64,000 bases of DNA from Corallococcus sp. EGB (lineage in GTDB: Bacteria > Myxococcota > Myxococcia > Myxococcales > Myxococcaceae), in the NCBI RefSeq assembly GCF_019968905.1, contig NZ_CP079946.1, positions 8,219,356 to 8,283,355 of the forward strand, read 5' to 3'. The position numbers and the translations under genes were made by a program. The notes beneath the pieces were generated by a model that saw only the letters and a list, made by a program, of their open reading frames with translations, did no database searches and was not told where the DNA came from. Positions within the stretch are counted from its first letter, which is position 1; each line of letters opens with the position of its first letter. This document shows, piece by piece, positions 22,865 through 28,999 of this stretch.

Positions 22865-23467
22865 TTACGTGCCCGGGCCGTAGAACCAGGCGGTGAGGGC
22901 CAGGCGGGGGGCGTGGACGGGCATCACCTCATGCTCCAGCCGCTCGCTCAGGAACACCACCAGGCGGTCCAGCACCGGCGCCACGTCCACCGGGGCGCCG
23001 GTATCCTCCGGAAAGAGGCGCAGCACGCCGCCGTGCTCCGGCTTCCAATCCGCGTTCGCGTACCAGACGGCGGTGAGGCGGCGGTTGGACCGGCCCGGAA
23101 ACGCATCGCGATGGCGGGTGTAGTGCGCGCCGCCGCCGGGATAACAGGCGAGCTGCACGTCGAAGCGGCCCAGCCCCAGGTATGAGCCCGTGGACACGGC
23201 CTCTCCCAATGCCTGGAAGCGGTGCCACAGGGCTTCGAGCTCGGGGGCCGCGCCGGGCAATACCCACTCGATGTGGTCGCCACGTACGGACCTATCAAGC
23301 GCGTGGTCCGCGCCGCGCCGGATGCCTGCGGGCTTCAGCATTCCGGCCTCCACTCGCGCGAGCGCCGCGGCCCTTGCCGCCAGCGCCCGCGCCTCACCAA
23401 GGAAGGCGTCCCGCACGAAGTATCCCTGGGAACCCAGGGCCTCCGCCTCCACGTCCGTCAGCTCCAT
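22865..23467 (-). CDS. 2-oxoglutarate/Fe(II)-dependent oxygenase, prolyl 4-hydroxylase-like
   Basis: The 200-residue protein has the double-stranded beta-helix core of the P4H/EGL-9 group. The iron ligands are visible: His119 and Asp121 in HYTRHRDAF and the distal His179 in LEHEVMP, with Arg188 (APRLALTAWFYG) placed to bind 2-oxoglutarate. Preceding LTAVWYANADWKPEHGGVLRLF is the typical strand pair of this family. It would hydroxylate a protein or small molecule using O2 and 2-oxoglutarate. The partner is unknown. It is divergent from the DUF4230 gene (95 bp). Confidence 0.85.
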   Translation of the reverse strand: MELTDVEAEALGSQGYFVRDAFLGEARALAARAAALARVEAGMLKPAGIRRGADHALDRSVRGDHIEWVLPGAAPELEALWHRFQALGEAVSTGSYLGLGRFDVQLACYPGGGAHYTRHRDAFPGRSNRRLTAVWYANADWKPEHGGVLRLFPEDTGAPVDVAPVLDRLVVFLSERLEHEVMPVHAPRLALTAWFYGPGT

Positions 23468-23562
23468 CCTGCGCTACTCCTTCGCGAGTCCCTGTCCGGA
23501 AGCCCGCGTCCGCACGCTGCCCCAGAACGCCCCCGGTGCGGAAGCGGGTAGACTTCCCGCCC

Positions 23563-24180
23563 ATGGCGAAGAACGTCTCGCGAGCCCTGTCCCTCCTCGC
23601 CGCGCTGGCGCTCGGCGCCCTGGCAGCCTGGGGGCTGCTGCGTCCCACGGCTCCCCGGCTGCCGGACACGGCGGCGGTGGTGGAACAGATGCGCGAGGTG
23701 GCCCGGCTGGAGACGCTGGACGTGTCCCTCTACAAGAAGGTCACGTTCACGCCGGAGCCGCAGGCCACGGACGCGCTGTGGAAGGACGTGCTGCTCTGGG
23801 CCAGCTACACGCTCCAGAACCCGCACGGCCGCGCCATCGTGTTCGCGGACGCGCACCTGGGCTTCGACTTCCAGCGCTTCGACGCCAGCCACCTGCACGC
23901 CGTGGGCACGCGCGTGGACGTGCTCCTGCCGCCGCTGCAAGTCACGGTGGCGCTGCGGCCCGGGGAGACGGAGGTCATCGACTCCAACCTGGACAGCGCG
24001 CAGACGGCGCAGTTGCTGGAAAAGGCGCGCCTGGCCTTTGAAAAAGAGGTGCGGCAGGACCGGCGCCTCCAGGAGAAGGCGCGTCAGTCCGCGGAACGCT
24101 CGCTGCGAGGCCTGCTGCTCACGCTGGGCTTCCGCGAGGTGCGGTTCGTGGAGACCTTGCCGGTGGGGAGCGCGGGATGA
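23563..24180 (+). CDS. DUF4230-domain membrane-anchored protein
   Basis: The 205-residue protein has one N-terminal membrane segment ([20 protein letters not shown]) and then a DUF4230-type region: an opening [24 protein letters not shown], a central beta-rich [19 protein letters not shown]...[12 protein letters not shown] and a C-terminal charged helix. DUF4230 proteins are thought to be periplasmic or exported; their function is unknown. ATG 23563 gives the signal-anchor immediately. Its stop overlaps the start of the macro-domain gene (ATGA, 24177-24180), so the two are translated together. Confidence 0.75.
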
Positions 24181-24686
24181 CGGAACGGTTGGAGTTGATC
24201 CAGGGAGACATCACGCGCGTCGCGGCGGACGCGATCGTGAACGCGGCGAACTCCGGCCTGTCGGGTGGCGGCGGCGTGGACGGTGCCATCCACCGCGCGG
24301 CGGGGCCGGAGCTGCTCGCGGCGTGCCGCACGCTGGGCCGCTGTCCCACCGGAGAGGCGCGCATCACGCGGGGCTACCGGCTGCCCGCGGCCCACGTCAT
24401 CCACGCGGTGGGCCCCTCATGGTGGGGCGGGGACCGCGGCGAGGACGAACTGCTGGCCTCGTGCTACCGGAGCACGTTCGCGTTGATGGAGCAGCACGGG
24501 CTGCGCACGGTGGCGTTCCCCGCAATCTCCACGGGCGCCTACGGCTTCCCCATTGAACGGGCCGCGCCCATCGCGCTGCGTGAAATCCGCGCGGCCCTGG
24601 CGCGGCGGCCGGAGCTGGAGCGCGTCACCGTGGTCCTCTTCAGCGAGCAGGACTTGAAGGTGTATCAGCGGGCGCTGGGCGCGTAG
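24177..24686 (+). CDS. Macro-domain protein, O-acetyl-ADP-ribose deacetylase-like
   Basis: The 169-residue protein consists of one macro domain of the MacroD/YmdB type: the opening [19 protein letters not shown], the loop [19 protein letters not shown], the conserved VIHAVGP, and the [12 protein letters not shown] segment that wraps the distal ribose. Such proteins hydrolyse O-acetyl-ADP-ribose or remove mono-ADP-ribose from proteins and nucleic acids in the cytoplasm. It is coupled to the DUF4230 gene by an ATGA overlap, though no functional link between the two families is known. It converges on the DUF1444-like gene. Confidence 0.9.
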
Positions 24687-25944: not shown

Positions 25945-25990
25945 GCGCGGACTTTAATGGTCCACGCCCGGAGCGCCCAGCCCCGCGTCC

Positions 25991-27151
25991 TCACTTCGGC
26001 GGGGAGAGGTCGTGGAACCTCCGGGGCCCCTGCCCCACCAATCGATGCAGGAACAGCCCGATGCCCGCCCCGCCCATGCCGTAGTCGTGGCTGATGCGCA
26101 GCAGGTGCCGGCCCGGAAACGCCAGCCCTTCCGGCCGCTCGATGCGGAACAGCAACGTCTGCGTCGCCTTCCTGCGAGCCTGCTCCAGATAGCGGGGCTC
26201 CCCCGTCACCCGATACAGGTCGAGCAGCGTCTCACCCATGGAAGCCAGCCCCTCGAACAGGTGGGGCGCCGCGGCGAAGAACACATTGCAGCCCTTCGCC
26301 GCCCGGTGCGCGGCGTCCAGATAGCGCTCCTCCTGAAGCACCTCGAAGAAGCGGATCAGCGCGGAGGCAATGCCGCCTCCGCCCTGGAGCCAGTAGGGCC
26401 GGTGGCCTCCGTCATCCGTAGCCGTACCCCAGACCCAGGCGCCCTCCCGCTCCTTCGCGTGCGCCAGGTCGAAGTCCATCGCCCGCCGCGCCGCCTCCAG
26501 GTAGCGCGCCTCGTTCGTGACGCGCCAGAGCGACAACAGGAAGAAGCCCACGCCGCTCGCGCCGTATGCGAAGCCCAGCTTGATGGCGGGCTGGCCTGCC
26601 TCGCGCCAATAGAGCGCTCCCGCCGGAGAGCGCTCCGCGGACTTCAGCAGGTGCTCCGCCGCCAGACAGGCCCACCCCAGCGCCTTCTCCTCCCGCGTGC
26701 GCAGATGGAACGCCAGCGCGGTCAGGCCCCAGCCCGCGGCGCCGTTGAACAGGTCCGCCGCCGCGAAGGCCAACGGCGACGCGGGCACATGCTCCAGGAG
26801 CGCCCAGGCCCGCTCGGGCAGGCCCAGCTCCAGGAAGGTCCACGCGACGCCCGCCATGCCTGAATAGAGCCCCGGCGGATACACGTCCGCGGTCACGGGC
26901 TGCGCGAGCAGCCACTCGCGCACGGCCGTGGGCACCTCGCCCAGCGCATCGTGCAGGAACAGCGCCGTGCCGCAGGCGCCGTACGCCACGTTCAGCGGGT
27001 TCGTCTGGAACGCGTGCGGGTCGCACGGGAAGAGCCGGTCCGTCCGCTGCACGTCCATGGACGCCACCACGTGCCGCGCGAGCCCGCGCACGGTCTCCCG
27101 CAGCAGCCCGGCCTCCGGCACGAGCGGCGTCACAGGTTCGAGGGAGTCCAT
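25991..27151 (-). CDS. LanC-like cyclase protein lacking zinc ligands (class III type)
   Basis: The 386-residue protein has the seven-fold LanC toroid; seven Gly-rich turns are visible (YGACG, YSGMAG, FNGAAG, YGASG, QGGGG, EGLASMG, YGMGGAG). Zn-dependent LanC enzymes carry His in HG, Cys in WC and a CHG motif. Here those positions are Tyr196 (FAYGASG), Leu255 (YWLQGG) and Phe299-Glu300 (LFEGL). Loss of all three ligands is the hallmark of class III LanKC cyclase domains. ATG 27149-27151 has AGGAGG upstream and overlaps the lyase-kinase gene by 22 bp. It presumably forms lanthionine or labionin rings in the peptide encoded at 28716-28817. Confidence 0.85.
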   Translation of the reverse strand: MDSLEPVTPLVPEAGLLRETVRGLARHVVASMDVQRTDRLFPCDPHAFQTNPLNVAYGACGTALFLHDALGEVPTAVREWLLAQPVTADVYPPGLYSGMAGVAWTFLELGLPERAWALLEHVPASPLAFAAADLFNGAAGWGLTALAFHLRTREEKALGWACLAAEHLLKSAERSPAGALYWREAGQPAIKLGFAYGASGVGFFLLSLWRVTNEARYLEAARRAMDFDLAHAKEREGAWVWGTATDDGGHRPYWLQGGGGIASALIRFFEVLQEERYLDAAHRAAKGCNVFFAAAPHLFEGLASMGETLLDLYRVTGEPRYLEQARRKATQTLLFRIERPEGLAFPGRHLLRISHDYGMGGAGIGLFLHRLVGQGPRRFHDLSPPK

Positions 27152-28617
27152 GCCTCCGCCTCCTGTCGCGCGGCGTCCACGCGTCCGTCCAGCAATGCCT
27201 GGATGATGCTCCGCACCTGCACGGGCAGGCCCGCGTCCACGAACGCGTCGAGCATCCGGAAGACCGGGTGCTTCGGATCCAGCTCCAGCAGGTTCTGCGT
27301 GGGGCAGACGAGGTTGTAGAGCAGCATGCCGCACGCGTAGAAATCGTCGAACGGCTCCAGCATGGGCACCTGTCTGCGCGCCGGCGCGCGGAAGCCCGGG
27401 TTGAACCACTGCACGGAGAACACCGACGGCTTGCCGTGTTCCTGCGCGGCCTCGAAGTCGATGAGCTTGAGCGCGCCCGTGGTCCGGTCCAGCAGGACGT
27501 TGCCCGGCGAGATGTCCCCCACCAGCAGGCCCCGCGCGTGGATGGACACCACCGCGTCCAGCAGGCGCAGCGCCACGTTCCGCCACGCCACGCAGCACCG
27601 GACGACGTGCCGGGGGTCGTCCATGCGGGTGAGCAGGATGAAGTCCTCGCTCACGCGGACGTGGGCCAGGGGCTCGCCCTCCTCGAAGGACGTGACGAGG
27701 AACGTGTGCTCCCACTCCTGGAACCGCTCGATGAGCAGGGGGACGCACGGCAGGCCCTGGAGGCGCTGGAGGTTGTCGTGCTCCCACTGGAGCGCGGTGA
27801 CGGCGTCCACCGTCCGCCCCTCGCCCAGCCAGGTCTCCGTATGCGGCCGCGCCTCCTTGAGGCAGACGGTGCGCCCCGTGCGCTGATCAACCGCCTTGTA
27901 GATGCCGCCGGAGTTCGTGAACGCCAGCGCCTCCAGCACCTGGTAGCGCCCGTTCAGGAGCCCGGAGTCATCCCCTTCGGGTTCGGGTTCGTCCGGCAGC
28001 GGATCCTTCACCCACTCCGGAAGCTGGAAGTACGGCGTGCGGACGTCCAGGACGGCCGCCCCATCCGGCCGGTGGATGAGCAGCGACCGCGTCCCGTCCA
28101 CCTTCAGCCGCGTCATCCGCACGAAGCCGCCGTAGCGGTAGTAGACCACCTTGCTGTCCCGGAACCGCTTGTCGGACAGGATGTACGGCCCCTCCAGCTC
28201 GCGCGTCGCCTGATGCAGCGCTTCGCCCAGCGACAGGAACGTGGCCTCGTCCGGGGGATAGAGCGTGACGAACTTCCCCGAGCCGCCCCGCGCGTACCGC
28301 TTCGAGTTCAGGAAGCGCAGCAGCACGGGGTCCGCGACGAACTTGAACGTCACGCCCGCGCGGAAGCACTCCCGCGCCACCCGGCGCAAGACCTCCGGCG
28401 CCTGCGCCGCGGTGGAGGAGACGTGGATCTTGAAGCCCTGCGGCTGGAGCGCCACGCGCTCCGGGTGGGCCTGGAACCAGACATCGAACCGGGAGAGCTT
28501 CCAGTCCTCCGGCAGGAGCGGCGCGAGCACGTCTGGATAGACGGAGCGGGCGGGAAGACGGCCCAGCGGCTCGAAGTAATCCGGGTCGATGAAGGTGAAG
28601 GAAGCGAACTCCTCCAT
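27130..28617 (-). CDS. Class III lanthionine synthetase, lyase and kinase domains only (LanKC-N)
   Basis: The 495-residue protein matches the first two-thirds of LanKC. Residues 1-215 form the phospho-Ser/Thr lyase-type domain, with GFKIHVSST, VTFKFVADPVLLRFLNSKRY, GGSGKFVTLYPPD and GPYILSDKR. Residues 223-495 form a kinase: Lys254 in VCLKEARP, the catalytic GDISPGNVLL (Asp368, Asn373) and LIDFEAA (Asp387). Together they should phosphorylate Ser/Thr in a precursor and eliminate phosphate to dehydroalanine/dehydrobutyrine. The LanC domain that normally follows is absent but is encoded by the next gene, overlapping by 22 bp. The peptide gene lies 98 bp upstream. Confidence 0.88.
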   Translation of the reverse strand: MEEFASFTFIDPDYFEPLGRLPARSVYPDVLAPLLPEDWKLSRFDVWFQAHPERVALQPQGFKIHVSSTAAQAPEVLRRVARECFRAGVTFKFVADPVLLRFLNSKRYARGGSGKFVTLYPPDEATFLSLGEALHQATRELEGPYILSDKRFRDSKVVYYRYGGFVRMTRLKVDGTRSLLIHRPDGAAVLDVRTPYFQLPEWVKDPLPDEPEPEGDDSGLLNGRYQVLEALAFTNSGGIYKAVDQRTGRTVCLKEARPHTETWLGEGRTVDAVTALQWEHDNLQRLQGLPCVPLLIERFQEWEHTFLVTSFEEGEPLAHVRVSEDFILLTRMDDPRHVVRCCVAWRNVALRLLDAVVSIHARGLLVGDISPGNVLLDRTTGALKLIDFEAAQEHGKPSVFSVQWFNPGFRAPARRQVPMLEPFDDFYACGMLLYNLVCPTQNLLELDPKHPVFRMLDAFVDAGLPVQVRSIIQALLDGRVDAARQEAEAWTPSNL

Positions 28618-28627
28618 GCGAGGCTCC

Positions 28628-28713
28628 AGGTCGTGACAGGTGGAGAACCGCGGCCACCCGCCCGGCGGAATCCAGGCGGGTGACCTGCTCCCTCCAGGGG
28701 AGCGTCACGACCT
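28628..28713. repeat. Inverted repeat between precursor and synthetase genes
   Basis: AGGTCGTGAC at 28628-28637 is the exact reverse complement of GTCACGACCT at 28704-28713, spanning almost the whole gap between the peptide gene and the synthetase gene. In RNA it could form a long-range stem that lowers read-through or synthetase translation relative to the peptide, a common arrangement in lanthipeptide operons. Confidence 0.45.
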
Positions 28714-28715
28714 CT

Positions 28716-28817
28716 TCAGCGCGCGCAGGTGAGGCTGCACTGGAGGCTGCTCGTGCTGTCCCGCAGACACTCGTTCTCCTTCGCCGCGAGCTGCTGAAGC
28801 GCGAGGACCTTCTTCAT
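28716..28817 (-). CDS. Class III lanthipeptide precursor peptide (33 aa)
   Basis: The ATG at 28815-28817, with an AGGAG site seven bases upstream, opens a 33-residue peptide ending at TGA 28716-28718. The leader MKKVLALQQL carries the class III recognition motif, with Leu and Gln at positions 7-8 after hydrophobic V4 and L5, as in the ILELQ leaders of labyrinthopeptin and SapB precursors. The C-terminal part has Ser21, Thr22, Ser23, Ser24, Cys27, Ser28, Thr30 and Cys31. Ser21-x2-Ser24-x2-Cys27 is the labionin motif; Ser28/Thr30 and Cys31 could form a second ring or remain open. It is followed directly by the lyase-kinase and LanC-like genes. Product unknown. Confidence 0.85.
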   Translation of the reverse strand: MKKVLALQQLAAKENECLRDSTSSLQCSLTCAR

Positions 28818-28874
28818 GGCTGACTCCTGGTTGAGGGGGATGAGGGTTTGCTTCGCCTTGAAAAGGCAATGCAG

Positions 28875-28903
28875 ACCCTAGGCCCTGAGAAACCGGGAAT
28901 CAA
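28875..28903 (-). promoter_or_regulatory. Candidate promoter of the lanthipeptide operon
   Basis: On the minus strand TTGATT (28898-28903) and TAGGGT (28875-28880) are separated by 17 bp, a sigma-70-like arrangement about 60 bp before the peptide start. The surrounding 180 bp are visibly less GC-rich than the rest of the window. The -10 match is weak (3 of 6). Confidence 0.4.
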
Positions 28904-28999
28904 TCACACACACAGACAGTATCAGCCCCTACGGGATATCCACGACAGGAATTGAGAAACAGAACGGAAAAATGGAAACACGCCGGAGCGGCAGGCCTC

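Follow-up and report, generated by a model that had tools for sequence, protein, structure and literature searches.

A 64-kb stretch of the Corallococcus sp. EGB genome (8219356-8283355 of a 9.43-Mb single contig; the window, below) contains three adjacent genes, lanA, lanK and lanC, which are very probably best explained as a class III-type lanthipeptide cassette with a synthetase made as two proteins. Class III synthetases are described as one protein with three interacting domains. As they are normally a single polypeptide, the split is more unusual than the precursor peptide, and the two-protein synthetase is new as a variant. The genes, their homology and conservation, the split, and an empty site in related genomes can all be seen directly in the genomes compared.

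The precursor gene lanA

The gene lanA occupies 28716-28817 of the minus strand, stop codon included, and encodes a 33-residue, class III-type lanthipeptide precursor (MKKVLALQQLAAKENECLRDSTSSLQCSLTCAR) with VLALQ in its leader and STSSLQC and SLTC in its core. The unmodified peptide has a monoisotopic mass of 3637.84 Da, which each dehydration would lower by 18.01. A Shine-Dalgarno-like AGGAG (28824-28828, minus strand) lies 6 nt 5' of the ATG, within an AT-richer stretch (28818-28982, minus strand; GC 0.515 vs 0.716 for the window) that probably holds the leader and promoter region. A preliminary description had proposed an open reading frame of 33 residues with an AGGAG site, a core carrying Ser21-x2-Ser24-x2-Cys27 together with Ser28, Thr30 and Cys31, and a position directly 5' of lyase-kinase and LanC-like genes. 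The sequence bears out each of these points, adds Cys17, Thr22 and Ser23 to the residues named, and places the three genes on one strand in the order lanA, lanK, lanC, with lanK starting 98 bases downstream of lanA.

Scored against curated models, the lanA peptide reaches 17.4 bits with NCBIfam NF038154 (cut-off 22) and 15.6 bits with NF038159 (cut-off 30), and it has no match to the SapB/AmfS family model NF033212 (cut-off 25 bits) at E ≤1. The peptides of its seven close relatives likewise match NCBIfam class III lanthipeptide models with scores that are all under the cut-offs. Two peptides from distant fused loci were scanned, and one of these (L017) scores above the class III precursor cut-offs; a Gemmatimonadota peptide (L048) has no match to these models.

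A class III-type synthetase in two proteins

The lyase-kinase half is encoded by lanK (27130-28617, minus strand; 495 aa), with matches to RamC_N (PF25816, 214.1 bits vs a cut-off of 27) and Pkinase (PF00069, 59.7 bits vs 31.7). The cyclase is encoded by lanC (25991-27151, minus strand; 386 aa; LANC_like, 88.6 bits), which overlaps lanK by 22 nt and has its own Shine-Dalgarno-like AGGAGG (27159-27164, minus strand), which lies 7 nt 5' of the lanC start codon, still within the 3'-terminal part of lanK. A single LanKC polypeptide is not encoded here, as lanK stops at 27130 and lanC starts at 27151 in a different frame. On NF038151, the 833-position class III synthetase profile, LanK covers positions 3-464 (440.2 bits) and LanC positions 484-833 (262.7 bits). 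Neither gene alone reaches the cut-off of 575 bits; jointly they span nearly the entire profile, which counts for a two-protein class III synthetase.

The residues that bear on chemistry agree with this. All eight lyase residues listed for ThurKC (K65, H67, K94, K108, K117, D152, R163 and R191) are identical in LanK at a constant offset. At the zinc-ligand positions, LanC has Q, F and E opposite the S726, F770 and D771 given for ThurKC, and the Cys, Cys, His set is absent from these columns in all 14 aligned cyclases. The leader is of the LxLQ type (VLALQ; L5, L7 and Q8 invariant in 8/8 close loci), and the core contains the SxxSx(2-5)C motif, as the relevant part of PMC11251773 defines it, in S21, S24 and C27 (again invariant in 8/8). 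A class IV system was considered and is ruled against by a cyclase that lacks zinc ligands; the class III profile also outscores that of class IV for both genes. For class V, an APH-type kinase and a HopA1-type lyase are the features given in the pertinent section of PMC10604976. The APH-type kinase model (PF01636) reaches 14.8 bits, under its cut-off of 23.2, and HopA1 (PF17914) is absent from the scanned window proteins. By these features we assign the synthetase to class III, as a split variant expected to function in the class III manner.

Predicted structures were less decisive. The LanC model (pLDDT 83.6) finds its best fold matches in class III CuvL (Z 37.7, rmsd 3.4, 350 residues) and ThurKC (Z 36.3, rmsd 3.2, 353 residues). 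In the same search plant GCR2, LanCL2, MadC and LanCL1 (Z 31.9-33.9) stand above or among the class III enzymes SalKC (33.0) and PneKC (27.5-28.5). LanCL-type folds thus score near CuvL and ThurKC, interleaved with other class III enzymes, so the fold alone cannot set the class of LanC. For LanK the predicted structure is of low quality (mean pLDDT 61.9), and its top structural neighbours, class III synthetases, carry little weight.

Conservation of the precursor beside the synthetase

A search of 96 family genomes for LanK at E ≤1e-60 returned 20 loci in 17 genomes. Eight are close, namely that of the window and seven at 63-72% identity, in 6/96 genomes; the other 12 are distant (33-40% identity to LanK, 11/96 genomes). 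In all eight close loci a short open reading frame adjoins the synthetase on its 5' side, encoding a KK..L.LQ.L leader and a core that is rich in Ser and contains Cys; at L009 this frame starts with GTG, preceded by AGGAGG. The alignment of the eight peptides has M1, K2, L5, L7, Q8, L10, S21, S23, S24, C27, S28 and C31 invariant. The preliminary description had held that its reading would fall if the Leu-Gln leader and the Ser-x2-Ser-x2-Cys core were not conserved beside this synthetase pair in related genomes. Both are in place in all eight loci, one of which, L009, has a fused synthetase gene instead of a pair.

A profile built from the seven relatives, with the window peptide left out, places lanA first among 1051 stop-to-stop segments of the window (E 2.6e-12, the next at 0.84), and a profile from the five more distant peptides alone still finds it at E 9.6e-8 (next best 1.0). 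The profile made from all eight peptides, run on the 96 family genomes, recovers those eight by construction, and the leave-one-out profile is the independent test. A further precursor match in G042 (E 0.0018) is weak and partial, covering positions 21-40 of 43, and was judged to be chance with 501 of the 3060 bases of the locus viewed.

Two groups can be told apart among the eight peptides. Those of the window, L009 and L025 carry a Cys within E-C-x-x-D-S, and their second ring region is short; those of L002 and L010-L013 are without that Cys and have SGCSVGC. The codon differences between the groups are mostly nonsynonymous. Together with the synthetase domains and the missing zinc ligands, the conservation in 8/8 loci supports the identity first suggested for lanA, a class III lanthipeptide precursor, and the peptide is a new member of this precursor type.

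Distribution and history of the split

Of the family's 20 loci, 13 have a fused synthetase gene; the 7 split loci all belong to the close group. They occur in five genomes besides that of the window. The sole fused member of the close group is L009 (G063), 72% identical, which encodes 880 aa beside a precursor very like that of the window; the 12 distant loci, all fused, encode 869-903 aa when measured from where the match begins. The window and L025 have lanK and lanC overlapping out of frame, and a spacer separates the two genes in the other five split close loci. The genome of the window carries a second split system at about 7956196-7959100 (G000:C1; L002, L036), with a LanK 64% identical and a lanA of its own whose core carries a second motif, SGCSVGC.

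Split systems also occur beyond the myxobacteria. In the phylum of a Gemmatimonadetes MAG, a LanK match occurs in at least 8 of 395 genomes (at most the four best candidates per genome, E 1e-60). Among the matches listed are three split loci with three gene orders: lanA-lanA-lanK-lanC with an ATGA overlap (L048/L074), lanK-lanA-ABC transporter-lanC (L085, 4399-9947) and lanA-lanC-lanK (L086). In L079 (G534) a fused-type LanKC has a cyclase part that continues in another frame, which looks like a sequencing error or the decay of a fused gene. In the remaining four genomes of this phylum with a LanK match, the frame stays open over 944-1069 aa. For the phyla of a Flavobacteriales MAG (395 genomes) and of Idiomarina (398 genomes), the matches listed comprise only the fused seed in each case, a weak negative given at most the four best candidates per genome at E 1e-60. 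Tandem pairs of Cys-rich precursors with LQ leaders were seen at L048:1898-2336 (Gemmatimonadetes MAG, split synthetase) and at L049:5418-5829 (Idiomarina xiamenensis, fused synthetase).

In a tree of 30 LanK sequences, all 10 split genes, fused L009 and fused L047 (Flavobacteriales MAG) form a clade of 12 with support of 100/99. A clade restricted to the 7 split myxobacterial genes, with L009 outside it, is disfavoured by the AU test (p 0.019), and one comprising all 10 split genes and nothing else is rejected (p 3.9e-06). On the best tree the fusion state changes three times, and well-supported branches force two or more of these changes. This history could be either one early split followed by re-fusions or several splits, and L009 is possibly a natural re-fusion.

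Weighing of alternatives

It is conceivable that the lanA frame arose by chance and that the enzyme pair has another substrate. The window contains a single ATG frame of 25-60 aa with a hydrophobic-x-hydrophobic-Gln leader and [ST]xx[ST]xxC, and no second precursor with the leader-core motif is present among such frames across the 64 kb. In dinucleotide shuffles of the whole window, 4/150 contain at least one frame with the lanA-type motif, a rate that leaves some room for chance; in shuffles of the intergenic stretch 28618-28999 the figure is 3/5000. Against this, the peptide is conserved in position beside 8/8 close synthetase loci and is recovered at E 2.6e-12 by a profile that excludes it. 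We take this conservation to be far stronger evidence for lanA than the shuffle odds, and a chance frame is highly improbable. A different doubt concerns the split, which could be non-functional, reflecting a frameshift or sequencing error in the fused LanKC of an ordinary or decaying cluster, or could be bridged by ribosomal frameshifting that yields one protein. The existence of fused L009 at 72% identity, the out-of-frame overlap of the genes in L025 and the window, and the frameshifted look of L079 would all fit such a reading. It is nevertheless unlikely, as 7/8 close loci are split, in five genomes beyond that of the window and with spacers in five of those 7, an AGGAGG precedes lanC, and the three Gemmatimonadota split loci have other gene orders, and in one of them lanK is parted from lanC by a lanA and a gene for an ABC transporter.

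The nature of the product is a sub-question of the two-protein class III reading and does not compete with the gene call. The cassette may stand and its product still contain ordinary lanthionines, together with dehydroamino acids that have not reacted, in place of labionin, which we consider about an even chance. A lanthionine could form at S23-x3-C27, at S24-x2-C27 and at S28-x2-C31, labionin and lanthionine are both possible outcomes of SxxSx(2-5)C according to the passage that describes the motif (PMC11251773), and a class III product of Myxococcus fulvus is reported to contain 3 (methyl)lanthionines after 7 dehydrations (PMC9576775). On the other side, the labionin-spaced S21, S24 and C27 are invariant in 8/8 loci. 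The motif thus permits a labionin at S21/S24/C27, with lanthionines from S23-x3-C27 or S24-x2-C27 as possible.

Proposed pathway

We propose a model where lanA is translated from its own start and the N-terminal helix of LanA, containing VLALQ, docks on LanK. LanK would phosphorylate Ser and Thr residues of the core and eliminate the phosphate to give dehydroamino acids. The separate LanC, probably translated by coupling to lanK, would join transiently and may also switch LanK on. It would add Cys27 and Cys31, and perhaps Cys17, to dehydroalanines, so that STSSLQC would acquire a lanthionine or labionin and SLTC a second ring. Enzymes encoded elsewhere would remove the leader and export the product; unclustered proteases serve other class III clusters, as indicated in PMC8960859. 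The chemistry, the docking, the pairing of the proteins and the co-transcription in this model are what we infer from the genes.

A role for LanC beyond cyclization is suggested by the artificial division of ThurKC. Residues 1-486 alone are inactive, and the separate 487-872 fragment restores modification (PMC10604976); a stable complex of the halves was not seen, and its authors call the reason for the joint requirement unclear (PMC10604976). LanK ends at residue 495, near the artificial cut at 486/487. As the ThurKC halves are active only together and the end of LanK lies near the cut, we infer by analogy that LanC is the cyclase and perhaps an activator of LanK in trans. Isolated domains of other enzymes are reported to be active alone (PMC10604976; also, in the part bearing on this, PMC7296275), so LanC need not be an activator. 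Points against the model as a whole are the lack of a protease or exporter gene common to the close loci, a peptide below the NCBIfam cut-offs, and the fused state of L009.

Relation to known systems

The closest characterized counterpart is ThurKC, the andalusicin synthetase of Bacillus thuringiensis (PDB 8sam, 8sao, 8sap), which in the features described for it shares the lyase and kinase domains, the eight lyase residues, the zinc-less cyclase and the LxLQ leader. ThurKC differs in being one 872-residue polypeptide, split only artificially at 486/487 (PMC10604976). CuvL of curvocidin (PDB 8car, 8cav) is the nearest solved fold to the LanC model, but its cyclase is part of one large chain. 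The fused LanKC enzymes of the 12 distant Myxococcaceae loci have the same domains, and several have the VLALQ leader; they differ in being single polypeptides, and several of the cores are of the SLSLLLC type. A lanthipeptide-type enzyme naturally in two polypeptides is likewise described for the class I split LanB of pinensin and in thiopeptides (in passages of PMC7268733 and PMC7296275). However, split LanB is a class I, tRNA-dependent enzyme, divided, according to the same passages, between glutamylation and elimination (PMC7268733, PMC7296275). In the M. fulvus work (FAST-RiPPs, PMC9576775), a myxobacterial cluster described without a protease gene gave a peptide that was modified in E. 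coli.

In classes II-IV, a single protein is stated to carry out both dehydration and cyclization (overview in PMC7268733). PMC11251773 includes a general statement, not specific to class III, that the domains for dehydration and cyclization are sometimes fused and sometimes separate. Among the titles and opening abstracts of the open-access literature we found no report of a class III synthetase that is naturally divided, and a description elsewhere is possible. A large survey, by the rule it gives, called class III/IV only if the LanC protein also matched a kinase model (PMC7268733), and it reports 1392 unclassified LanC proteins left after removal of likely unrelated and near-contig-end ones, some of which lie in RiPP-like clusters (PMC7268733). 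As this rule needs kinase and LanC in one protein, split systems would be expected to land among the unclassified, and more of them may sit unrecognised in databases.

On balance we think it probable that these enzymes of Myxococcota and Gemmatimonadota form a clade of their own, made up of natural two-protein class III synthetases whose free, zinc-less LanC would serve in trans as cyclase and as activating partner of the lyase-kinase, that they have been overlooked by one-protein mining rules, and that the myxobacterial members travel as minimal lanA-lanK-lanC cassettes. The ten natural split genes would be natural counterparts of the artificially split ThurKC. Natural split enzymes and the fused close relative L009, a ready control enzyme, make the question of why both halves are needed directly testable.

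Genomic site of the cassette and neighbouring genes

Other genomes of the genus lack the lanA-lanK-lanC cassette (25957-28982, about 3.03 kb) at this position. The flanking genes, a histidine kinase gene upstream and a TPR gene downstream, are both present in 15/15 other genomes, and for none of the 15 is a match to lanA-lanK-lanC listed at that site. The flanks are at most 113 bases apart in 12/15 and 0.6-2.9 kb apart in 3/15 (G022, G021, G017). The sharpest empty site (L065) has 6 bp between the bases matching window positions 25956 and 28983. As the cassette is absent there in 15/15 genomes, the stretch of about 3.03 kb appears either to have been gained here or to have been lost many times elsewhere. 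Apparently different DNA occupies the same gap at G017:C188:56109-59006, G021:C1144:15104-16544 and G022:C17:147642-148240, and the gap between 25956 and 28983 may be a spot that accepts insertions. Border repeats of 12 bases or more are absent within either 301-base border stretch of the cassette. The longest word common to both borders is 8 bases (CCGGAGCG, at 25968 and 28983), a length equalled in 21/200 shuffles and thus not above chance.

In 20-kb neighbourhoods of the 8 close and 2 fused loci, examined for conserved protease, transporter or regulator genes, no family apart from the synthetase genes recurs in at least three loci. This survey used a crude picker of open reading frames of at least 60 aa, which took antisense frames over lanC in L035 and L038, where lanC was read from the frames. 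L036 and L042 have flanks in common. Near the cassette in the window, at 23182-24686 on the plus strand, a DUF4230 open reading frame shares four bases with the gene for a macro-domain protein (ADP-ribose hydrolase-like).
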